Part shown: positions 3,829-56,534 of the stretch, one piece after another
Position numbering within the stretch: position 1 is the first letter of the stretch
Layout of the letters: each line of letters begins with the position of its first letter
Source: Cytophagales bacterium
GTDB taxonomy: Bacteria; Bacteroidota; Bacteroidia; Cytophagales; Spirosomataceae
DNA: 64,000 nucleotides
Direction: 5' to 3'
Assembly (NCBI GenBank): GCA_013298125.1
Contig: JAAFJP010000011.1
Coordinates: 62,001 to 126,000 of the forward strand
The notes under the pieces: generated by a model
Told to the model about the DNA's origin: nothing
Databases searched by the model: none
Seen by the model: only the letters and a program-made list of their open reading frames with translations
Made by a program: the position numbers and the translations under genes

Positions 3829-5181
3829 TTACAAATCCATTCGCTTTACCTTATTGTAGAAACGCCAACTCAATAATGATGCTGAGGCAAATAGTGCAAG
3901 CGTAAGTCCGATCCAGATACCTATGTGTTTCATTTCATAATGAAATCCTAATACATAACTCATTGGCAAGCCAACACCCCAATAGGCAAAAACTGTTATT
4001 AAGGTTGGAATGTTTACATCTTGAATCCCTCTTAAAATCCCCAGACTAACTGCCTGAATACCATCAAAAAGTTGGAAAAAACCTCCCCAAATGATGAGTT
4101 CAGCCGCTAAGATAATGACTTGTTCATCTTTGACGTAGCTGGCAAATTCTACATTGAAAATCAATAAAAAGAACGTACAAATTGCCATAAAGACAAATCC
4201 AATTCCCAAGGCGGTTGTTCCAGCTTTCAAAATATTAGCCCTATTTTTCTCTCCCAAACTCGCCCCAACTCTTATTCCGCCCGCCGAAGCGATGCCCGTT
4301 GCTGCCATGTACGTGAGTGCTACATAATTGATGGCGACTAAATGGGCAGCTTTGTGTTGAATGCTTATCCAACCCATCATCACGACAGCCCCATAGAAGG
4401 CTGCAATTTCAAAAAAACCTTGAAATCCGCTCGTAATGCCTATTTTCAGAATATTCTTAACCAAATTATTGACGTTTCCAATCGGTTCTTTGATTTGTAG
4501 ATAGACTTTAAAAGTATCAGTTTTGAAAGTAAAATATGCTAACATCAAAGCCATGTAGGTTCTCGCAATCAGGGTTGCAACTCCCGCCCCGTTCAATCCC
4601 CATGCAGGAAAAAACCAGATGCCATGAATAAAACAATGGTTGAGAATCACGTTCAGAATCAATGCCGAAAGCGTGATTTTCATGGATAAATTGGCGAAAC
4701 CAAGCCCATCCGTAAAACTTTTGATGGAAGTAAAAACAAACGATGGAATGGTTGAGATGATAATAATCCAAAGGTACTCTTTGGTGAGTGTTCTGATTTC
4801 GGCAGGTTGTTTCGTTATTTCAAGATTGAAACTAACAAATAACAAAATCAAAGAGCAAACCAAACTCATCAAAAATGAGACTGTGATATTTGCTTTTAAT
4901 AGGCGTTTACATTCTACAAAATCATTCCCAGCCTGAGCTTTTGAGACCATCGGGGCAACTATTTGTAAACAGATATAACCGATTATGGCAATATTTACAG
5001 TCATGCCGTTAGCATCGGCGGAGGCAGCAAGGGCTTCAACAGCCCCTTTGTCCATGCGTCCCACCTGTACGGTATCGGCAAAGCCCATGAGCATAATACC
5101 CAATTGCCCCGCAATGATTGGAAGGGCTAATTGATAGGTAGCAATGATGTCTGTCTTGTAATTAAGTAGTAATTTTTTCAA
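3829..5181 (-). CDS. MATE-family multidrug/Na+ efflux transporter
   Basis: A 450-residue polytopic inner-membrane protein with about 12 hydrophobic segments in two similar halves. The N-terminal pattern (LALPIIAGQLGIMLMGFADTVQVGR) and PMVSKAQAGN are typical of NorM/DinF-like MATE exporters that use Na+ or H+ gradients to expel cationic drugs. The start is a TTG at 5181: an in-frame stop lies shortly upstream, no ATG exists before the first membrane segment, and MKKLLLNYKTD is a plausible N-terminus. It lies 19 nt upstream of the Crp-like gene's recoverable start and could share a transcript with it. The substrate is unknown. Confidence 0.92.
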   Translation of the reverse strand: MKKLLLNYKTDIIATYQLALPIIAGQLGIMLMGFADTVQVGRMDKGAVEALAASADANGMTVNIAIIGYICLQIVAPMVSKAQAGNDFVECKRLLKANITVSFLMSLVCSLILLFVSFNLEITKQPAEIRTLTKEYLWIIIISTIPSFVFTSIKSFTDGLGFANLSMKITLSALILNVILNHCFIHGIWFFPAWGLNGAGVATLIARTYMALMLAYFTFKTDTFKVYLQIKEPIGNVNNLVKNILKIGITSGFQGFFEIAAFYGAVVMMGWISIQHKAAHLVAINYVALTYMAATGIASAGGIRVGASLGEKNRANILKAGTTALGIGFVFMAICTFFLLIFNVEFASYVKDEQVIILAAELIIWGGFFQLFDGIQAVSLGILRGIQDVNIPTLITVFAYWGVGLPMSYVLGFHYEMKHIGIWIGLTLALFASASLLSWRFYNKVKRMDL

Positions 5182-5342: not shown

Positions 5343-6875
5343 TTATTCCCACTCAATGGTTGCAGGTGGTTTTGAAGAAATATCATAGACAACTCTATTC
5401 ACACCTTTTACTTTATTGATAATTTCGTTGGAAATATCCGCTAAAAAATCATAAGGTAAATGACACCAATCCGCCGTCATACCGTCCACGGATGAGACTG
5501 CCCGCAAGGCTACCACACGCTCATAGGTACGCTCATCGCCCATGACTCCCACCGACTGAATTGGTAAAAGCATTGCTCCCGCTTGCCAAACGCCGTCGTA
5601 TAAACCTCTGGTTTTTAAGCCATTAATAAATATGTAATCGACTTCTTGAAGAATCTGCACTTTTTCAGCTGTAATATCTCCCAAAATTCTGATACCTAAA
5701 CCTGGACCAGGAAAGGGATGACGACCTAAAATAAATTGTGGAATTTCGAGAGTTTTACCTACCAAACGAACTTCGTCTTTGAATAAAGTTTTCAAAGGTT
5801 CAACCACTTGCAATTTCATGTAGTCAGGCAATCCACCTACGTTATGGTGTGATTTAATGGTCTGCGAAGGTCCACCACTCACCGAAACGGATTCAATAAT
5901 ATCTGGATAAATTGTCCCCTGTCCCAACCATTTTACATTCTCAATCAAATGAGATTCTTGGTCAAAAACATCAATAAATGCCTTTCCGATGGCTTTTCGC
6001 TTGGCTTCGGGGTCAGTTAATCCTTCTAAGGCTTTGTAGAAAATATCCTTTGAATTTACGCCTTTTACGTTCAGTCCTAAATTTTTATAAGACTCTAAAA
6101 CATCCTCAAATTCATTCTTTCTCAGTAAACCATTATCTACAAAAATGCAGTAAAGATTTTTACCAATGGCTTTATGAATCAAAACTGCCGCAACCGAACT
6201 ATCAACGCCTCCTGAAAGCCCTAAAACCACTTTATCGTCACCCAATTGAGCTTTTAGAGCCGCCACTGTTGAATCTACAAACGAGTCAGCTGTCCAGTCT
6301 TGTGAGCATTTACAGACATCCAAAACGAAGTTTTTAATCATCGTTTTGCCTTCTAATGAGTGCGTAACTTCTGGGTGAAACTGAATACCAAACGTTTCTT
6401 CGCCTTTGATGTGAAAAGCGGCATATTTCACATCATCCGTCGAACCAATCACTTCAAAATCATCGGGCAAAGACATAATCGTATCTCCATGCGACATCCA
6501 AACTTGTGTTCCTTCTGAAACTCCCGAAAAGATTGCCGATTGCTGATTGCTGATTGCTAATTTTGCTCGTCCGTACTCACGATGTCCAGAATTATAAACT
6601 TCACCACCACCCATAAATGCCAACAGTTGAGCACCATAACAAATCCCCAAAACGGGCAATTTTCCTCTAAAAAGGCTCAAATCAACTCGTGGAGAATCTT
6701 CGTCACGCACAGAACACGGACTGCCCGAAAGGATAATTCCCTTTACAGATTCATCAATGACAGGGATTTTATTGAAAGGGTGGATTTCGCAATAAATATT
6801 TTGTTCACGAACTCGACGGGCGATTAATTGTGTAACCTGTGAACCAAAATCAAGAATGATTATTTTTTCGGACAT
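5343..6875 (-). CDS. guaA: GMP synthase (glutamine-hydrolysing)
   Basis: A 510-residue cytosolic enzyme converting XMP to GMP with ATP and glutamine, the last step of guanine nucleotide synthesis. Domains in order: a class I glutamine amidotransferase with the triad C79 (GICYGAQ), H167 and E169 (FHPEV); an ATP pyrophosphatase with the PP-loop SGGVDSS (221-227); and the C-terminal dimerisation domain with [14 protein letters not shown], ending in the characteristic PPATIEWE. The length agrees with the family (about 510-525). The ATG at 6875 gives the canonical N-terminus ([13 protein letters not shown]). A terminator at 6959-6993 separates it from the upstream glycosidase gene, so it is transcribed on its own or with what follows. 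Confidence 0.98.
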
Positions 6876-49063: not shown

Positions 49064-50524
49064 ATGTTTGAACAAACTTTTAAAAATATTGACGACCTTC
49101 TTTACAAAGATTCAGGAGCGGATAGTGAATTGGATTATATCGGGCAGACTTCTTGGGTGATGTTTTTGCGATACCTTGACGAACTGGAACAGGACAAAGC
49201 TGACCAAGCTGAATTGGAAGGCAAAGAATACACGTATATCCTTGATGAAGAATACCGTTGGGGTACTTGGGCAATGCCTAAAAACGAAGACGGTAAATTA
49301 GATATTCATAAAGCTATGACGGGCGTTGATTTGGTGCAATTTGTGGATTTGAAATTGTTTCCTTACTTGGCTGGGTTCAAGTTGAAAAACATGGATAATC
49401 CTCAGACGATTCAGTATAAAATCGGTGAGATTTTCTCTGAACTCAAAAATAAAATTCAAAGTGGTTATAACCTCCGTGAGATTTTGGGTTATGCCGATGA
49501 ATTGCCTTTTCGGAGTAATACCGATAAGCACGAATTGAGTCATTTGTACGAAACGAAAATCAAAAATATGGGTAATGCAGGGCGTAATGGTGGACAATAC
49601 TACACGCCACGACCCCTTATCCGTGCGATGATTGCGGTGATTAAACCCAAAATTGGCGAGCGTATTTATGATGGTGCTGTCGGTTCGGCTGGCTTCCTTT
49701 GTGAGGCTTATGAATATTTGACCCGTGACCGTGAAAGCCTGACGACTACCGATTTGGAAACCCTCCAAACCAAGACTTTTTACGGAAAAGAGAAAAAGAA
49801 TTTGGCGTATATCATCGGGATTATGAACATGATTTTGCATGGTATTGAAGCCCCTAACATCATCCATACCAATACGTTGTCTGAAAATATTTCTCAGATT
49901 CAAGAGAAAGACCGTTACCATGTAATCTTCGCCAATCCTCCCTTTGGTGGAAAAGAACGCCCCGAAGTGCAACAGAATTTTGATATAAAAACGGGTGAAA
50001 CGGCTTTCCTTTTCTTACAACATTTTATCAAAAACTTGAAAGCGGGTGGTAGGGCTGCCATTGTGATTAAGAATACCTTTTTGAGTAATTCAGACAATGC
50101 TTCGGTATCGCTCAGAAAGCATTTATTAGAAACCTGTAACCTCCATACCGTGTTGGATATGCCCGCAGGTACGTTTACGGGTGCGGGTGTGAAAACGGTA
50201 ACGCTATTTTTTACCAAAGGAGAACCTACGCAAAGTGTTTGGTACTATCAGTTTGATGCAGGGCGAAGCATGGGTAAAACCAATGCTTTGAACGATGTGG
50301 ATATGCAGGAGTTTATTACGCTCCAAGCAACGAAACCCAACACAGAAAAAAGTTGGAGCATCAAGATTGCCGATGTACAAACGCATAACTACGACCTCAG
50401 CGTAAAGAACCCAAACACGCCCGAAGAAGCACCGCTAAGAAGCCCAATGGATATTTTGACAGAAATGCAAAGCCTTGATGTTGAGACAAATGAGATTTTA
50501 TTGACGATTAAAAATTTGATTTGA
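49064..50524 (+). CDS. hsdM: Type I restriction-modification DNA methyltransferase subunit
   Basis: A 486-residue N6-adenine methyltransferase. An N-terminal HsdM_N helical domain (about 1-140: MFEQTFKNIDDLLYKDSGAD, SWVMFLRYLDELE) is followed by the catalytic domain with motif I D203-GAVGSAGFL and motif IV N291-PPF (IFANPPFGGKERP). It works with HsdS and HsdR, which follow; two HsdM and one HsdS form the methylating enzyme that protects host DNA. First gene of the island, just downstream of tRNA-Arg and its terminators; the leader contains no clear promoter match. The gap to the next gene holds a hairpin. Confidence 0.97.
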   Translation: MFEQTFKNIDDLLYKDSGADSELDYIGQTSWVMFLRYLDELEQDKADQAELEGKEYTYILDEEYRWGTWAMPKNEDGKLDIHKAMTGVDLVQFVDLKLFPYLAGFKLKNMDNPQTIQYKIGEIFSELKNKIQSGYNLREILGYADELPFRSNTDKHELSHLYETKIKNMGNAGRNGGQYYTPRPLIRAMIAVIKPKIGERIYDGAVGSAGFLCEAYEYLTRDRESLTTTDLETLQTKTFYGKEKKNLAYIIGIMNMILHGIEAPNIIHTNTLSENISQIQEKDRYHVIFANPPFGGKERPEVQQNFDIKTGETAFLFLQHFIKNLKAGGRAAIVIKNTFLSNSDNASVSLRKHLLETCNLHTVLDMPAGTFTGAGVKTVTLFFTKGEPTQSVWYYQFDAGRSMGKTNALNDVDMQEFITLQATKPNTEKSWSIKIADVQTHNYDLSVKNPNTPEEAPLRSPMDILTEMQSLDVETNEILLTIKNLI

Positions 50525-50593: not shown

Positions 50594-51613
50594 ATGGAAA
50601 ACAAACCCACTTTACAAAATAATCTTTTACTCACTGACGTACTGGCTATTTTGCAAACAGCCAGACAAAAAGCATACAGTGCCGTCAATACGGCTATGGT
50701 GCAAGCCTATTGGTTGATGGGCAAACGGATTGTGGAAGAAGAACAAAAAGGAGAGCAAAAGGCTGTTTATGGAGAGGCATTACTTAAAAATCTGTCAGTA
50801 GCATTAACGGCTGAATTGGGAAAAGGATTTTCGTATGCCAATCTTAGAAATTTTAGACAATTCTATCTCACTTATCCTGATGCTGAGATTTGCTACGCAG
50901 TGTGTAGCAAATTGACATGGAGTCATAATCGCCTGATAATGAGAGTAGAAAATCCTGATGCAAGAAATTATTATTTGGAAGAATGTGCCAATCAAAATTG
51001 GAGTACACGCACCTTAGAACGAAATATCAATACTTTTTACTACCAAAGGTTATTGTCTTCGCAACAAAAACAGGATATACAAACGCCCGAAAAAACGGAC
51101 GTAAATGATTTTATCAAAGACCCTTACGTTTTTGAGTTTTTGAATATCCCCGAACCTTTTGCTACCTTAGAAAAAGACATAGAAAGTGCCTTGATTGAAA
51201 ATTTGCAGGCTTTTTTGTTGGAATTGGGTAAAGGCTTTTCGTTTGTGGGAAGACAATTTAGAATTTCTACCGAAACGAGCCACTACTTTATTGACCTTGT
51301 TTTTTATAATTATTTACTCAAATGTTTTGTGCTTTTTGACCTAAAAACAACCAAACTGAGCCACCAAGATACGGGGCAAATGGATATGTATATCCGTATG
51401 TTTGACGACCTCAAAAAACAAGATAACGACAACCCTACCATTGGGATAATACTCTGTGCCGAAAAAGATGAAACCGTTGTGAAATACAGTATTTTGAAAG
51501 AACACAAGCAACTATTTGCTACTAAATATATGCCCTATTTGCCCACAGAAGAAGAACTAATTGCGGAAATAGCCCGTGAAAAACGATTGATTCAAGAAAA
51601 AAATGACAAATAA
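50594..51613 (+). CDS. YhcG/DUF1016-family PDDEXK nuclease
   Basis: A 339-residue protein with an N-terminal DUF1016_N helical domain (TAMVQAYWLMGKRIVEEEQK, ELGKGFSYANLRNFRQFYL, LTWSHNRLIMRVENPDARNY) and a C-terminal nuclease domain (about 200-320): SHYFIDLVFYNYLLKC, then FVLFDLKTTKLSHQDTGQMD, with D and D-x-K as the likely catalytic set. YhcG proteins are frequent passengers in type I restriction loci. Their activity is mostly unproven; a defence or DNA-repair role is inferred. It overlaps the start of hsdS by 11 nt, so they are translationally coupled. Confidence 0.93.
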   Translation: MENKPTLQNNLLLTDVLAILQTARQKAYSAVNTAMVQAYWLMGKRIVEEEQKGEQKAVYGEALLKNLSVALTAELGKGFSYANLRNFRQFYLTYPDAEICYAVCSKLTWSHNRLIMRVENPDARNYYLEECANQNWSTRTLERNINTFYYQRLLSSQQKQDIQTPEKTDVNDFIKDPYVFEFLNIPEPFATLEKDIESALIENLQAFLLELGKGFSFVGRQFRISTETSHYFIDLVFYNYLLKCFVLFDLKTTKLSHQDTGQMDMYIRMFDDLKKQDNDNPTIGIILCAEKDETVVKYSILKEHKQLFATKYMPYLPTEEELIAEIAREKRLIQEKNDK

Positions 51614-52823
51614 CATGAGAAAAGGATGGGAAATAAAAAGGCTAAAAGAAGTTTGTGAAAAAATTACAGATGGTACTCATCAAACGCCTACATATTTTGA
51701 TAGTGGATATATTTTCCTATCATCAGGAAATGTAACAAGTGGAATAATCAATTGGGATAAAATCAAATACATAGATGAACAGCAACATTTAGAAATGCAA
51801 AAGAGGGTATCTCCTAAAATTAATGACATCCTTTTAGCTAAAAATGGGACTACTGGGGTTGCTGCAATGGTTGATAGAGATGTAGATTTTGACATATACG
51901 TTAGCCTTGCATTATTACGACCAATAAAGGTTATAACTCCGCATTATTTACTGTATTTTATCAACTCACCACTGGCAAAAGCACAATTTAATAGTAGGCT
52001 AAAAGGTGCAGGAGTACCAAATCTTCATTTAAACGAGATTAGGGAGGTTGAAATTCCTTTTCCAAATGACAAAAAAGAACAACAACGCATTGTCTCTATT
52101 TTAGATGAAGCCTTTTCTTCTATTGAGCAAGCCAAAGAGAATTTGCAACGCAATTTGCAAAATGCCAAAGAGCTTTTTCAGAGTGAAATGAATAGTATTT
52201 TTACGAATAAAGGTGAGGGGTGGGAAGAGAAAAAGTTGGGAGAAGTTTGTGAAACAATTTCTGATGGAGACCATCAACCACCTCCAAAAACAGAAGAAGG
52301 AGTACCTTTTATAACAATTTCCAATATTAACAAAGAAACAAATCGAATTGATTTCTCACATACATATAATGTTTCGACAGAATATTTTGAAAAGATAAAA
52401 CCGAATAGAAAGCCTCAAAAAGGGGATGTTTTATATACGGTAACAGGCTCATACGGTATTCCAGTTTTAATAGACTTTGAAAAAAATTTTTGTTTCCAAC
52501 GCCACATTGGTTTAATACGTCCAAGTAATAAACTTGATAAACAATTTCTATTTTACTGGATTTTATCTCCAAATTGTTTTAGGCAAGCTCACGACACTGC
52601 CACAGGGACAGCACAAAAAACGGTATCACTTAATTCTTTGAGAAGTTTTAAAATAAGTGTTCCAAACCTCGAAACCCAACAAAAAATTGTCCAACAACTC
52701 GACAAATTATCAACCGAGACGAAGCGATTAGAGGCGATGTATCAGCAGAAATTGGATGCTTTGGAGGAATTGAAGAAGAGTATTTTGCAGAAGGCTTTTA
52801 GTGGGGAGTTGTCTGAACGGTGA
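51603..52823 (+). CDS. hsdS: Type I restriction-modification specificity subunit
   Basis: A 406-residue protein with two target recognition domains. Each opens with a similar signature: GWEIKRLKEVCEKITDGTHQ (near residue 8) and GWEEKKLGEVCETISDGDHQ (near 206). Each ends in a long coiled-coil spacer (NDKKEQQRIVSILDEAFSSI and ETQQKIVQQLDKLSTETKRL). The TRDs read the two halves of the bipartite recognition site, which cannot be deduced here. The last residues (LSER) and stop codon come from the TGTCTGAAC palindrome family. The start could also be MRKGWE, four codons later. Confidence 0.95.
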   Translation: MTNNMRKGWEIKRLKEVCEKITDGTHQTPTYFDSGYIFLSSGNVTSGIINWDKIKYIDEQQHLEMQKRVSPKINDILLAKNGTTGVAAMVDRDVDFDIYVSLALLRPIKVITPHYLLYFINSPLAKAQFNSRLKGAGVPNLHLNEIREVEIPFPNDKKEQQRIVSILDEAFSSIEQAKENLQRNLQNAKELFQSEMNSIFTNKGEGWEEKKLGEVCETISDGDHQPPPKTEEGVPFITISNINKETNRIDFSHTYNVSTEYFEKIKPNRKPQKGDVLYTVTGSYGIPVLIDFEKNFCFQRHIGLIRPSNKLDKQFLFYWILSPNCFRQAHDTATGTAQKTVSLNSLRSFKISVPNLETQQKIVQQLDKLSTETKRLEAMYQQKLDALEELKKSILQKAFSGELSER

Positions 52824-53065: not shown

Positions 53066-53473
53066 ATGATAAACGAGCAGTACAAATATTCGGAACTGAC
53101 TTCCAAGATTATCGGTTGTGCCATGACGGTTCATAAAGCGTTAGGAAATGGCTTTCAAGAGGTTATTTATCAAAGAGCATTGGCAATTGAAATGCGTTTG
53201 GCAGGAATTACGTTTAACCGAGAGTTTGAAATGCCCATTTTTTATCGAGAAGAACATATAGGCACAAGGCGTGTCGATTTTTTAGTAGAAGGGGTAATTT
53301 CTGTTGAATTAAAAGCAATCTTTAAGTTAGAGGATGTACATTACGCCCAAGCCATTAATTATTTAGAAGCCTATAATCTTGAAATTGGACAGCTAATAAA
53401 TTTCGGAGGAACAAGCCTGGATTTTAAAAGACTTACCAATAAAAAATATAAACCATTGATTGTAAGTAATTGA
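53066..53473 (+). CDS. GxxExxY-family putative nuclease
   Basis: A 135-residue protein with the family hallmark GNGFQEVIY (G-x2-E-x2-Y) preceded by IIGCAMTVHKAL, and with a PD-(D/E)XK-like core: VDFLVEGVISVELKAI (D ... E-x-K), then HYAQAINYLEAYNLEIGQLI and the FGGTSLDFKRL end. The family (TIGR04256) is common in Bacteroidota and has no proven function; the fold suggests a nuclease. Here it lies inside the type I restriction operon and is bracketed by inverted copies of one palindrome family (left arms before 53050, a right arm at 53533-53549), so it may have arrived as cargo and not as part of the restriction system. Confidence 0.9.
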   Translation: MINEQYKYSELTSKIIGCAMTVHKALGNGFQEVIYQRALAIEMRLAGITFNREFEMPIFYREEHIGTRRVDFLVEGVISVELKAIFKLEDVHYAQAINYLEAYNLEIGQLINFGGTSLDFKRLTNKKYKPLIVSN

Positions 53474-53506
53474 TAATCAAAATATTAAATTGTTAATACA
53501 CTATTT

Positions 53507-53549
53507 TCATAGTAATCAAAAGAATCAAATAAATCATAGTTCAGACAAT
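53507..53549. repeat. Right arm of the TGTCTGAACTATGATT palindrome at the start of hsdR
   Basis: AATCAAAAGAATCAAATAAATC.. (words only) leading to ATCATAGTTCAGACAATT, ending just before the hsdR start codon at 53551. It is the inverse of the left arms at 52810 and 52837, on the other side of the GxxExxY gene. Confidence 0.85.
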
Positions 53550-53550
53550 T

Positions 53551-56304
53551 ATGAACGAAACCGAAACACGAGCCGAACTAATAGACCCCGCCTTAACATT
53601 AGCTGGATGGGGTGTGGTGGAGGGTAGTAAAGTCCGCAGAGAATTTCCGATTTCAAAAGGTCGGTTAATCGGTCATGGACAAAGGACAAAACCCGATAAA
53701 GCGGATTATGTACTGCAATATCGTAATCGGAATATAGGGATTATCGAAGCCAAAAAGCGGGATTCTCACTATACCGAAGGCGTTGCTCAGGCAAAAGACT
53801 ACGCAGGTCGTTTGCAAGTTCGTTTCACGTTCAGTACCAATGGGTTAAGGATTTATGAAATTGATATGGACGAAGGACAGGAAAGGGATGTAAATTCCTT
53901 TCCAAGTCCCGATGAATTATGGACGATGGCTTTTGGAGCGTATCAACTCGAAAAGCCTGACAGCCAAGCACTTATCAGGAGCTTTGATGCCATACCTTTT
54001 GAAACGAAAAGTGGCGAAAAACCGCCAAGATATTACCAAGAGAATGCCGTCAATAATGTGCTTGAAAGCATTGCAGAAGGCAAAAAAAGAATACTTTTGA
54101 CCCTTGCCACAGGTACTGGCAAAACAGCAGTTGCCTTTCAGATTGCGTGGAAATTGTTTAAAGCCAAATGGAACATCAATGGCGATGGACAACGTAGCCC
54201 AAGAATATTGTTTTTAGCGGATAGAAACATCTTAGCCAATCAAGCATACAGTTCGTTCAATGAATATAATGCCTTTGAAGAAGACAGTTTCAAGCGAATT
54301 ACACCAGCCGAAATCACCAAGACAGGCAAAGTTCCGACTAACGCCAATGTATTTTTTACCATCTTCCAGAGCTTTGCGGCTTCGACAAGCTCAGCCACCC
54401 AAAAAGCAATTGACAAAAATGTTTCGATTGAAATAGATGAGGTGAGTTCAATTGATTTTGCAAAAGGTTATATGTATATTTTAAAATGTGTAGATGATAG
54501 TTTTTATGTAGGAAGTACAAAAGACTTAGTAAGAAGACTTCAACAACATAAAAACGGAGATGGAGAAGGGGCAAAGCATACAAAGAGTCGTTTACCTGTT
54601 AAACTCGTCTATTATGAAGGTTTTGAAAGAATAGACGAAGCATTCAATAGAGAGAAACAAGTTCAAGGATGGAGTAGAGCAAAGAAAATAGCACTTATTA
54701 AGGGAGATATGAAATCTCTTCAAGAGTTATCCAAAAGTAAAAAGTCCCCTGAGCTTGTCGAAGGGAATTTCGGACAATATCCCAAAGATTTTTTTGATTT
54801 TATTATCATAGATGAATGTCACCGAGGCGGAGCAAATGACGAAAGCAGTTGGCGGGACATCATGGAATATTTTTCTCCTGCCATGCAGTTGGGACTCACC
54901 GCCACGCCCAAACGAAAATTCAACAAAGACACCTACAAATATTTCGGTGAACCCGTTTATGTGTATTCATTGAAACAAGGAATCAACGATGGATTTTTAA
55001 CGCCCTTCAAAGTAAAACAGATTGCGACAACGGGTGATGATTACATCTATACCTCTGACGATGAAGTGATTGAGGGTGAAATTGAGCAAGGAAAAGTCTA
55101 TGACATAGACGAACAAAACAAGGTAATTGAACTGATGGACATAGAGGCATTCCGTGTGCGAACCTTTATGGAAATGATTGACCAAAACCAAAAAACCTTG
55201 GTATTTTGTGCTACACAGGCTCATGCGTTGGCGGTCAGGAATCTTATCAATCAAATGGCTATCAGTAAAAACCCAAACTATTGCCACCGAGTAACGGCAG
55301 ATGATGGCAAATTGGGCGAGCAACATTTGAGAGATTTTCAAGACAATGAAAAGAGCATTCCAACCATTCTGACGACTTCTCAAAAGTTGAGTACGGGCGT
55401 GGATGCACCCGAAATCAGGAATATCGTTTTGCTCCGTCCTGTGAAGCAACTCATTGAATTTAAGCAGATTGTGGGCAGAGGCACACGGCTTTTTGATGGA
55501 AAAGATTACTTCACGATTTATGATTTTGTGAAAGCCTACAAAAATTTCAGCGACCCTGACTGGGACGGAGAACCCGAAGACCCAGAGCCACCGATTGAAA
55601 GACCAACGCCCCCACCAAAACTATGTACTACTTGCGGACAAAGACCTTGTATCTGTTTGAAAGAACCTGAGCCACCATGTTTAGTATGTCAGCAATCGCC
55701 TTGTGTGTGTCCATCCAGACAGATGATAAGAGTAAAATTGAGTGATGGAAAAGTGAGAGATTTGCAAAAAATGGTCAGCACCTCTTTCTGGAATCCAGAT
55801 GGCAAGCCCATTTCTGCCGAAGAATTTTTAGAGAACTTGTTTGGTGAATTACCTGCATTTTTCAAGAATGAAGAAGAACTAATTGAAATTTGGCGTAAAC
55901 CAGATACCAGAAAAAAACTCTTGGACGAACTCAAAGAAAAGGGCTTTGCCAAAGAGCAATTAGAGGAATTCCAAAGGGTATTGAATGCCCAAAATAGTGA
56001 TTTATATGATGTGTTGGCATACGTAGCGTTTCATTCCACCATTGTAGAAAGAACCACCAGAGCAGAAAAAGCGAAGATATACCTCCATAATTACGATGCT
56101 AAACAGCAGGATTTTTTAAATTTTGTCTTGAAGCAATACATCAATTCGGGGGTTTATGAGTTGGATGAAGAAAAACTTTCACCTCTTTTGTTGCTGAAAT
56201 ACAATGCCATCAATGATGCGAAAAAGGCGTTGGGGGATATTGCTACGATACGGAAGACATTTATTGGGTTTCAGGGGTATTTGTATGGTGGGGTTGCGGT
56301 TTAA
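53551..56304 (+). CDS. hsdR: Type I restriction subunit with an inserted GIY-YIG nuclease domain
   Basis: A 917-residue motor-endonuclease of the type I system. Domains in order: an HsdR_N PD-(D/E)XK nuclease (about 10-110: KADYVLQYRNRNIGIIEAKK); superfamily 2 helicase domain 1 with Walker A LATGTGKT (about 184-192) and the DEAD-type motif IIIDECHRGG (D421); helicase domain 2 (LVFCATQAHALAV, QKLSTGVDAPEI, QIVGRGTRLF); a short Cys-rich linker (CTTCGQRPCICL, CLVCQQSPCVC); and a helical C-terminal domain. Between FTIFQSFAA (to about 277) and FGQYPKDFFDFIII lies an insert of about 128 residues. It contains a full GIY-YIG domain (about 308-395: YMYILKC, FYVGSTKDLVRRLQQH, NREKQVQGWSRAKKIALI), bracketed by inverted palindromes translated as STSSAT and SPELVEG. 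The frame is open throughout. Whether restriction still works is unknown. Confidence 0.95.
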   Translation: MNETETRAELIDPALTLAGWGVVEGSKVRREFPISKGRLIGHGQRTKPDKADYVLQYRNRNIGIIEAKKRDSHYTEGVAQAKDYAGRLQVRFTFSTNGLRIYEIDMDEGQERDVNSFPSPDELWTMAFGAYQLEKPDSQALIRSFDAIPFETKSGEKPPRYYQENAVNNVLESIAEGKKRILLTLATGTGKTAVAFQIAWKLFKAKWNINGDGQRSPRILFLADRNILANQAYSSFNEYNAFEEDSFKRITPAEITKTGKVPTNANVFFTIFQSFAASTSSATQKAIDKNVSIEIDEVSSIDFAKGYMYILKCVDDSFYVGSTKDLVRRLQQHKNGDGEGAKHTKSRLPVKLVYYEGFERIDEAFNREKQVQGWSRAKKIALIKGDMKSLQELSKSKKSPELVEGNFGQYPKDFFDFIIIDECHRGGANDESSWRDIMEYFSPAMQLGLTATPKRKFNKDTYKYFGEPVYVYSLKQGINDGFLTPFKVKQIATTGDDYIYTSDDEVIEGEIEQGKVYDIDEQNKVIELMDIEAFRVRTFMEMIDQNQKTLVFCATQAHALAVRNLINQMAISKNPNYCHRVTADDGKLGEQHLRDFQDNEKSIPTILTTSQKLSTGVDAPEIRNIVLLRPVKQLIEFKQIVGRGTRLFDGKDYFTIYDFVKAYKNFSDPDWDGEPEDPEPPIERPTPPPKLCTTCGQRPCICLKEPEPPCLVCQQSPCVCPSRQMIRVKLSDGKVRDLQKMVSTSFWNPDGKPISAEEFLENLFGELPAFFKNEEELIEIWRKPDTRKKLLDELKEKGFAKEQLEEFQRVLNAQNSDLYDVLAYVAFHSTIVERTTRAEKAKIYLHNYDAKQQDFLNFVLKQYINSGVYELDEEKLSPLLLLKYNAINDAKKALGDIATIRKTFIGFQGYLYGGVAV
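54380..54763. mobile_element. Putative palindrome-bounded GIY-YIG unit inside hsdR
   Basis: The perfect 15-bp inverted repeats CTTCGACAAGCTCAG (54380-54394) and CTGAGCTTGTCGAAG (54749-54763) delimit a 384-bp segment (128 codons) containing the GIY-YIG coding region, which has a possible own start at ATG 54472. The repeat is of the common TTCGACAAGCTCAG palindromic type seen in many genomes. Calling it a mobile unit is inference. Confidence 0.6.
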
Positions 56305-56328
56305 GGGCAATGACGGTGTGGAATGTCG

Positions 56329-56534
56329 TTCCTTGGTCGGTAGAACCACTCCGTCCCTTGGTACGGTGTCCTCACCTGACATCGTCCGAAAGCCATAGGA
56401 CGAATAGTTTTTAATGTCTATTTTATTTATAACTACTTGATAATCAGGTACTAATTTACTTGAAATATTGCTTTCGCCAGATGTAAGGTGAGGATACCGT
56501 GCCACGGGACGGAGTGGTTCTACCTACCAAGGAA
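56329..56534. repeat. 206-bp inverted repeat after hsdR
   Basis: Two 55-bp arms (56329-56383, 56480-56534; shared words GGTAGAACCACTCCGTCCC) with about six differences. A small hairpin, CGTCC/GGACG, lies in the 96-bp interior. It begins 25 nt after the hsdR stop codon and marks the end of the island. Confidence 0.88.

Follow-up and report, generated by a model that had tools for sequence, protein, structure and literature searches.

How does the gene for one DNA-cutting enzyme come to carry, in frame, the domain of another? The question is raised by a 64,000-nt stretch of DNA from a Cytophagales bacterium of the Spirosomataceae (GenBank assembly GCA_013298125.1, contig JAAFJP010000011.1, positions 62,001 to 126,000; hereafter the window). 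Within it, the hsdR gene of a type I restriction system holds a GIY-YIG nuclease domain bounded by two short inverted palindromes, and the same arrangement recurs at the same site in hsdR genes from several phyla. Judging from these comparisons, it is very likely that the cassette has moved between hsdR genes. It is probably a palindrome-bounded, splicing-free, homing-like element that has entered hsdR repeatedly and is translated as part of HsdR.

A nuclease cassette within the helicase core of HsdR

A first-pass annotation of the window, made from its letters alone, had placed a GIY-YIG domain in frame within the helicase core of HsdR, and this holds. The open reading frame (ORF) at 53551-56304 is uninterrupted across the insert. 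Its product of 917 amino acids matches the EcoAI/FtnUII HsdR family of NCBIfam (NF046051, 772 bits; cut-off 550), and Pfam finds a GIY-YIG domain (PF01541, 64.9 bits) at residues 305-379, inside the helicase core. A pattern search also recovers PD-ExK, Walker A, TATP, and motif VI. By its family profile and its helicase and nuclease motifs, the protein is an EcoAI-type HsdR. The parts of the interrupted gene are as follows.

53551..56304, plus strand: hsdR, type I restriction subunit of the EcoAI family, with an in-frame insert (ORF and profile matches)
54376..54768, plus strand: in-frame segment of 131 codons (393 bp), flanked by FQSF and FGQYP, that replaces the native loop
54380..54394, plus strand: left palindrome arm CTTCGACAAGCTCAG, translated STSSA (inverted-repeat comparison)
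54412..54462, plus strand: linker preceding the nuclease (alignment of inserted forms)
54463..54687, plus strand: GIY-YIG domain (Pfam stretch) with conserved catalytic-type residues (PF01541, alignment, AlphaFold2)
54749..54763, minus strand: right palindrome arm CTGAGCTTGTCGAAG, exact reverse complement of the left arm, translated PELVEG (inverted-repeat comparison)

The 393-bp segment is preceded by FQSF and followed by FGQYPKDFFDFIIIDECH. Its 15-bp arms are the perfect inverted repeats that had been reported for its ends, and pairing stops immediately outside them on both sides. Among solved structures, those closest in sequence to the GIY-YIG part are the UPF0213 proteins 1zg2 (E 1.4e-18) and 1ywl (E 4e-14), and we assign the domain by sequence to the GIY-YIG superfamily, as a UPF0213-type member. 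Residues Y22, Y32, G34, R42, and E81 of our alignment (A2) are invariant in all 13 inserted forms that it contains. The linker is likewise conserved among inserted forms, and all 13 aligned have an invariant Glu at A2 position 10.

An AlphaFold2 model of the window HsdR, built from 29 sequences, has a mean predicted local distance difference test score of 71.8 and a predicted template modeling score of 0.48, and the second helicase domain is largely predicted poorly. Block means of the local score are 77-94 over residues 301-390 and fall below 50 at residues 277-282, 286-290, and 398-404. The top match of the model in the PDB is an HsdR fragment, 3h1t.

Two expectations of the first-pass annotation had to be revised. 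It held that other HsdR proteins run almost directly from FTIFQSF to the DECH motif, such that about 128 residues would be extra in the window. Instead, a short MSG-type loop of at most 16 residues occupies this place in 50 of 70 insert-free relatives (mostly 9 or 13 residues in the examples displayed); the loop is longer or different in 18 and palindrome-derived in two. The net gain over the native loop is about 120 residues for a window loop of 131. Given the junction positions described below and the short loops of insert-free relatives, the cassette takes the place of the native loop. It had also been suggested that an internal ATG at 54472 might allow separate expression of the nuclease. 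The ATG is present, but no stop codon separates the GIY-YIG domain from the rest of HsdR, so that it could start only a fusion of the nuclease with the C-terminal part of HsdR, and no stop lies inside the loops of the 14 other insert-bearing genes.

The cassette recurs at one site in other hsdR genes

Genome contigs were scanned with an HsdR alignment, and the best 80 loci of 536 confirmed relatives were kept. In twelve of these 80 (L092-L102 and L104), FQTF and FG.YP enclose a GIY-YIG domain. When the inserted form was used as the query against 1339 genomes from five phyla, 45 matches were obtained. Seven lie in ORFs of at least 750 amino acids, and all seven of these are hsdR; the ORFs of the remaining 38 do not exceed 223 amino acids. 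Five of the long ORFs were already known seeds (the window, L093, L096, L101, and L102), and L173 and L207 are new, each of which reads as hsdR. With the window included, the insert-bearing hsdR genes number 15. Their record labels name Bacteroidota, Verrucomicrobiota, Chloroflexota, Thermodesulfobacteriota, Pseudomonadota, and Nitrospirota, which gives six phyla by label; the record title of L099 gives no phylum. Among 390 genomes of the window's own order, no long-ORF insert was found besides that of the window (E up to 1e-18). With few carriers over many genomes and phyla, the element is rare yet widespread.

All 15 inserts are located between FQ[TS]F and FG.YP. The left arm begins 5 nt into the loop in 11 genes, 2 nt in L096, and 11 nt in L092, L099, and L173, where the native MSG is retained. 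Between the end of the right arm and FG lie 6 nt in ten genes; four genes have 3 nt there, and one has 15 nt. Both arms share one reading frame in every case; six arm pairs are exact, and in the others 1 to 4 of 14 bases disagree. The junctions compared show no target duplication.

The idea that a palindrome-bounded cassette had entered a restriction gene without breaking it is supported by these loci. The loop length is divisible by three in all 15 genes, and helicase motifs are detected wherever the available sequence reaches. The HsdR nuclease-domain pattern is present in 13 of the 15; L102 ends before this region, and L095 has no pattern match. An hsdS gene adjoins 8 of 12 insert loci and an hsdM gene 5 of 12, within the flanks retrieved. 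An old domain without palindromes in most close homologs would have spoken for a long-established family feature, and what was found is that every carrier has the arms.

One pair of genes, both labeled Nitrospira, provides a filled and an empty version of the site. On either side of the loop, the nearest 150 nt of L102 and L148, taken in 50-nt blocks, show 92-98% identity; the loop of L102 is a 453-bp cassette, and that of L148 is 39 bp (13 codons). A third state is seen in L130, in which the left arm and the right end occupy the same positions and the nuclease is missing, as an in-frame deletion would leave it; L130 thus looks like a remnant without its nuclease. When the consensus of the 240 bases upstream of the loop is scanned, it peaks (0.873) in the 24-base window that ends at the first loop codon. 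A conserved stretch of this length beside a loop that tolerates inserts has the features expected of a homing target.

Other insertions were seen in this loop. In the L164 hsdR loop (6275-6433), two palindromes stand in the opposite order (PEPVEG ... LRQAQ) and no nuclease is present; the repeat has 110 copies in that genome. In L133, labeled Planctomyces, the loop (2153-2305) is filled by a different, repeat-like segment (PHPNPLPRSTGGEGA).

The nuclease and its hosts have different trees

The wider of two HsdR trees has 85 rows, with the loop omitted, L008 excluded for its long branch, and L092 (frame break downstream) and L102 (contig end) entered as partial sequences. On this tree the 15 hosts require 15 changes of state, 11 of them forced by well supported branches, and shuffled host labels require a mean of 14.1; such counts do not separate gain from loss. 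A single clade of insert-bearing HsdRs is rejected by the approximately unbiased (AU) test (p 3.9e-48). In the first tree, of 84 rows, 13 changes were needed for 13 hosts. Flanking DNA gives a similar answer close to the insert. With 60 codons (180 nt) per side there are 14 changes and a single clade is rejected at p 1.6e-4, and with 120 codons per side it is rejected at p 6.6e-8 (14 hosts). Presence and absence flip between near relatives in L102/L148, L104/L159, and L095/L144. The alignment to insert-free homologs that the first-pass annotation had called for shows that the closest HsdR found, L103 (76% identical), has no insert, and that in the tree sampled here carriers are scattered among insert-free HsdRs.

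The nucleases behave differently. In the wider GIY-YIG tree, the 15 inserted forms make one group (support 92/87) against 57 stand-alone forms, with stand-alone matches shorter than 80 columns and identical ones omitted. The tree was redone with five phylum searches because the first, in which 13 inserted forms grouped (97/95) against 47 stand-alone forms, drew its stand-alone sequences from the window's order and nearby groups. L092 and L173 exemplify the disparity, with 83% residue identity in GIY-YIG and 63% in HsdR over the stretch compared. One conserved host-gene site, occupied by nucleases whose tree is unlike that of their hosts, is one mark of a homing element, and by these sequence comparisons the cassettes show it, with distances that are partly congruent, as a Mantel test described below indicates.

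In L092, the nearest cassette relative, from Chitinophagaceae, hsdR has a frame break on the downstream side of the insert. ORFs resembling transposases are found there inside the hsdS region and also upstream of hsdR.

Palindromes as part of the cassette

The 14-mer TTCGACAAGCTCAG, with up to two mismatches, has only two matches in the window, and these are the cassette arms; shuffled windows have a mean of 0.23 matches, with at least two in 2 of 100 shuffles. In the whole genome it occurs three times. Two of the copies are the cassette ends, and the third lies on contig C28 in a different ORF, where it resembles normal coding sequence. So few copies rule out a general genome repeat as the source of the cassette in this genome.

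A search for the pattern TTCGRCARGCTCAG covered 14 of the 15 genomes with the insert, and not all of its matches were placed. All matches are inside the cassette in three genomes (2/2 in G762, 3/3 in G754, and 1/1 in G525), and the remaining insert-bearing genomes have 2 to 25, some of them outside it. The insert-free genomes G766 and G767 have no match to this pattern. Elsewhere the palindrome word is dispersed, often in inverted pairs, with up to 45+42 copies in G015, and it is present in 28 of 98 relatives.

The two arms of a locus agree better with each other than with those of other loci (17 mismatches against 23.3, sd 2.5; 42 of 5000 shuffles are as low). Moreover, the left arm uses the Ser codons TCG and TCA in all 15 genes, compared with 17% and 13% of the Ser codons of the hosts. 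This means that the DNA word is preserved, beyond the peptide that it encodes. In sequence comparisons, then, the palindromes are shown to belong to the cassette and to travel with it.

The first-pass annotation had proposed a search of the genome and its relatives for further palindrome-flanked GIY-YIG genes. In the window's genome the cassette holds the only palindrome pair. Inverted repeats of at least 14 bp flank stand-alone relatives at 19 of 65 loci, and 0 of 65 after shuffling, in a count in which at least two places are counted doubly and loci with short flanks are omitted. The stand-alone genes L022, L049, and L043/L068 have an inverted palindrome pair on each side, in other spellings (CTTCGACTCCGCTCAG, CCTTCGACAGGCTCAGGG, CTTCGGCTTCGCTCAGG). 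Nuclease type and palindrome type may co-vary.

Further palindromes are translated in tandem, as PEPVEG/STSSAT tails in L067, as SAQPP/SEVEG in L208, and as PELVDSV repeats inside the L173 hsdR. In L064, a GIY-YIG ORF of 264 amino acids continues into further sequence that may be DprA/SLOG-like.

Searches for a carrier and for other identities

Viral contigs gave 32 pattern matches to the cassette, none of which was confirmed. Twenty-three phage records match the GIY-YIG part, the best place in each below 60% identity, and 29 plasmid records match the linker and GIY-YIG part together, all below 60% identity. The whole HsdR matches 337 plasmid records; among the 20 listed, ten cover at least 80% of it, some of them 84-85%, which is the value expected from an HsdR without the insert.

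Several known kinds of element were considered and rejected. An intein is ruled out because the Pfam matches of the 917-residue protein include no intein domain, and a group I or II intron because Rfam has no match at E of 0.1 or below in 53400-56400. The insert is also unlike a transposon or insertion sequence, since it holds only GIY-YIG and replaces the native loop, without duplication at the compared junctions. It does not conform to repetitive extragenic palindromic (REP) sequences or REPINs either, since only one copy of the 14-mer in the window's genome is not a cassette end, as against up to 87 and 110 copies in other genomes. A long-ORF match in genome G008 (L045) is not this element. 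It is the distantly GIY-YIG-like end of a protein of 2159 amino acids, with the motif near the C terminus at about 3872-3967 (G008:C6).

A proposed mechanism

The mobile element would consist of a UPF0213-type GIY-YIG nuclease between two inverted TTCGACARGCTCAG-type arms, with one element lineage specialized on the variable loop just before helicase motif II of EcoAI-type hsdR genes. On arrival the cassette would replace this loop and preserve the frame; having no start or stop of its own, it would be made as a domain of HsdR. Because it is made in this way, it is expressed and the host keeps its gene, an intein-like strategy without splicing. The HsdR-borne nuclease might then cut hsdR copies that are empty, or else single-stranded DNA at the palindromes; the cassette would be copied into the empty gene by repair or recombination that uses the conserved flanks. 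That movement is driven by the nuclease in such a homing-like manner seems to us, on balance, the better supposition. Tentatively, and with less confidence, we propose a class of splicing-free, intein-like elements, in which palindrome-ended GIY-YIG cassettes home to one codon-level site in hsdR across phyla, persist as tolerated domains, and possibly reach their targets by HsdR translocation.

Weighing the alternatives

The first-pass annotation had left two readings standing, a restriction enzyme with two unrelated nuclease domains and a homing-type element hosted by a defense gene. Recurrence, scattered hosts, and a single nuclease lineage make the second the better of the two. Some observations nevertheless tell against a homing-like element. 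The proportion of 12 in 80 overstates the frequency of the insert, because the score that ranks the loci gains from the insert itself. With 60-codon flanks only 4 of the changes are forced. The clade of inserted nucleases is supported but unstarred in the wider tree, in which the bootstrap is unsettled and only 88 columns are used. HsdR and GIY-YIG distances agree in part (Mantel r 0.36, a value reached in 58 of 5000 permutations), and GIY-YIG DNA identity exceeds HsdR DNA identity in only 41 of 105 pairs. GC content at third codon positions (GC3) is lower in the cassette than in the host HsdR in 13 of 15 genes, yet tracks the host. This partial adjustment speaks for long residence, and together with the Mantel congruence and the DNA identities it implies that some copies are long resident and were inherited within lineages. 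The conserved linker with its invariant Glu fits adaptation to life inside HsdR, and no separate DNA-binding module is recognizable in the inserted domain.

Some of this would suit a functional module, in which a second nuclease activity aids defense, selection and ordinary recombination between hsdR alleles spread it, and the palindromes are passengers. Such a module is a serious but unlikely explanation. The conserved linker, the invariant catalytic-type residues, the intact frames and HsdR motifs, the nearby hsdS and hsdM genes, and the partly host-adjusted GC3 all agree with it. It accounts poorly for the flips of presence within close pairs, for the rarity of the insert (two new cases in 1339 genomes beyond five seeds), and for arms preserved at the DNA level down to their Ser codons. 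That palindrome-ended GIY-YIG genes instead insert everywhere, and that the hsdR loop is merely a place where they survive in frame, with no specialization on hsdR, we consider improbable. The loop does accept other inserts, as in L164 and L133, and inverted repeats are frequent on both sides of stand-alone relatives; against this, the inserted nucleases cluster rather than intermix with stand-alone forms, the junctions are in most cases identical to the base, and none of the 45 matches in the 1339 genomes is a long-ORF insertion outside hsdR.

A single entry into an ancestral hsdR followed by many losses is more improbable still. The 15 changes on the HsdR tree and the rejection of a single clade disagree with it, with the caution on gain and loss given above, and each loss would need to restore the short native-type loop that most insert-free relatives have; the one nuclease group, the Mantel correlation, and the likeness of L130 to a deletion remnant are what it has in its favor. 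An assembly artifact or chance has a negligible claim. Many loci do come from metagenome bins, and L092 has its frame break downstream of the insert, but independent records from the six labeled phyla agree in site, arms, and nuclease lineage. The homing-like element described above remains the reading that we prefer.

Gene neighborhood of the window hsdR

The gene lies 3' of both other genes of its system, downstream of hsdM and hsdS.

49064..50524, plus strand: hsdM, same system as the window hsdR (Pfam)
51603..52823, plus strand: hsdS, same system as the window hsdR (Pfam)

A YhcG/DUF1016 nuclease gene (50594-51613; PADLOC PDC-S02) stands between hsdM and hsdS, and a PDDEXK_3 gene of the GxxExxY type (53066-53473) between hsdS and hsdR. 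On the 3' side of hsdR, at 56337-56525, is an imperfect long inverted repeat with arms of about 45 nt (GGTAGAACCACTCCGTCCC... and its complement), which is a distinct palindromic element.

Significance and relation to known systems

If the proposal is true, a selfish nuclease can live within an essential-looking protein domain, with no intron or intein, through in-frame insertion into a tolerant loop, and a restriction gene directed against invading DNA would be a standing home for one such invader. The natural pairs of empty and filled sites would offer a test system for small palindrome-associated GIY-YIG proteins as mobilizing enzymes. For annotation, peptides such as STSSAT and PELVEG inside a protein reveal these palindromes.

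Inteins and intron-borne homing endonucleases resemble the cassette in that they occupy a conserved site in a conserved gene, have a scattered distribution, and carry the nuclease within the element. They differ in that the window protein has neither an intein domain nor an Rfam match at its gene, and the domain appears to stay in the protein. The Ssn proteins of Neisseria and others are GIY-YIG nucleases whose substrate is single-stranded DNA, cut at sequences repeated in the genome. They share with the cassette a small GIY-YIG protein with associated repeats, and the insertion into hsdR sets the cassette apart.

Homing-type elements and one GIY-YIG insertion in an HsdR are already known; homing in the present case is what we infer. 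The known insertion is in the Methylococcus capsulatus HsdR MCA0838, where a survey places a GIY-YIG domain at about position 800, reports an 80% identical relative without it, and terms it unique (Dunin-Horkawicz et al. 2006, PMC1564403). Its authors suspected a recent and perhaps functionless insertion, and asked whether such domains are parasites (PMC1564403). As there described, MCA0838 is like the window in having GIY-YIG inside HsdR, at about position 800 rather than 275. A word search of the survey's text finds no mention of palindromes (PMC1564403). A literature search of partial coverage returned no title on recurrent GIY-YIG cassettes in hsdR or their single nuclease lineage and none on GIY-YIG genes with REP-like palindromes, which does not prove that none exists.

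Among in-frame fusions, LAGLIDADG homing endonucleases are reported joined to rps3 in fungal mitochondria (PMC7902536). These are alike in that a selfish nuclease gene is in frame with a host protein gene. In that account, they belong to a group I intron locus and are of the LAGLIDADG type, whereas the present cassette occupies an internal loop of a bacterial defense enzyme in several phyla, is of the GIY-YIG type, and has palindromic ends. In-frame palindromes within genes are known as well, from REP sequences and Rickettsia palindromic elements, and the recB genes of Xanthomonas are described as having REPs at about the same site (PMC3733652). REP sequences with their associated tyrosine transposases (RAYTs), REPINs, and the Rickettsia elements thus share with the cassette, as far as these descriptions go, short inverted palindrome pairs that in some cases lie in frame inside genes. 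The cassette differs from REP/RAYT systems in having a GIY-YIG nuclease in place of a tyrosine transposase, and a single palindrome pair in the window's genome.

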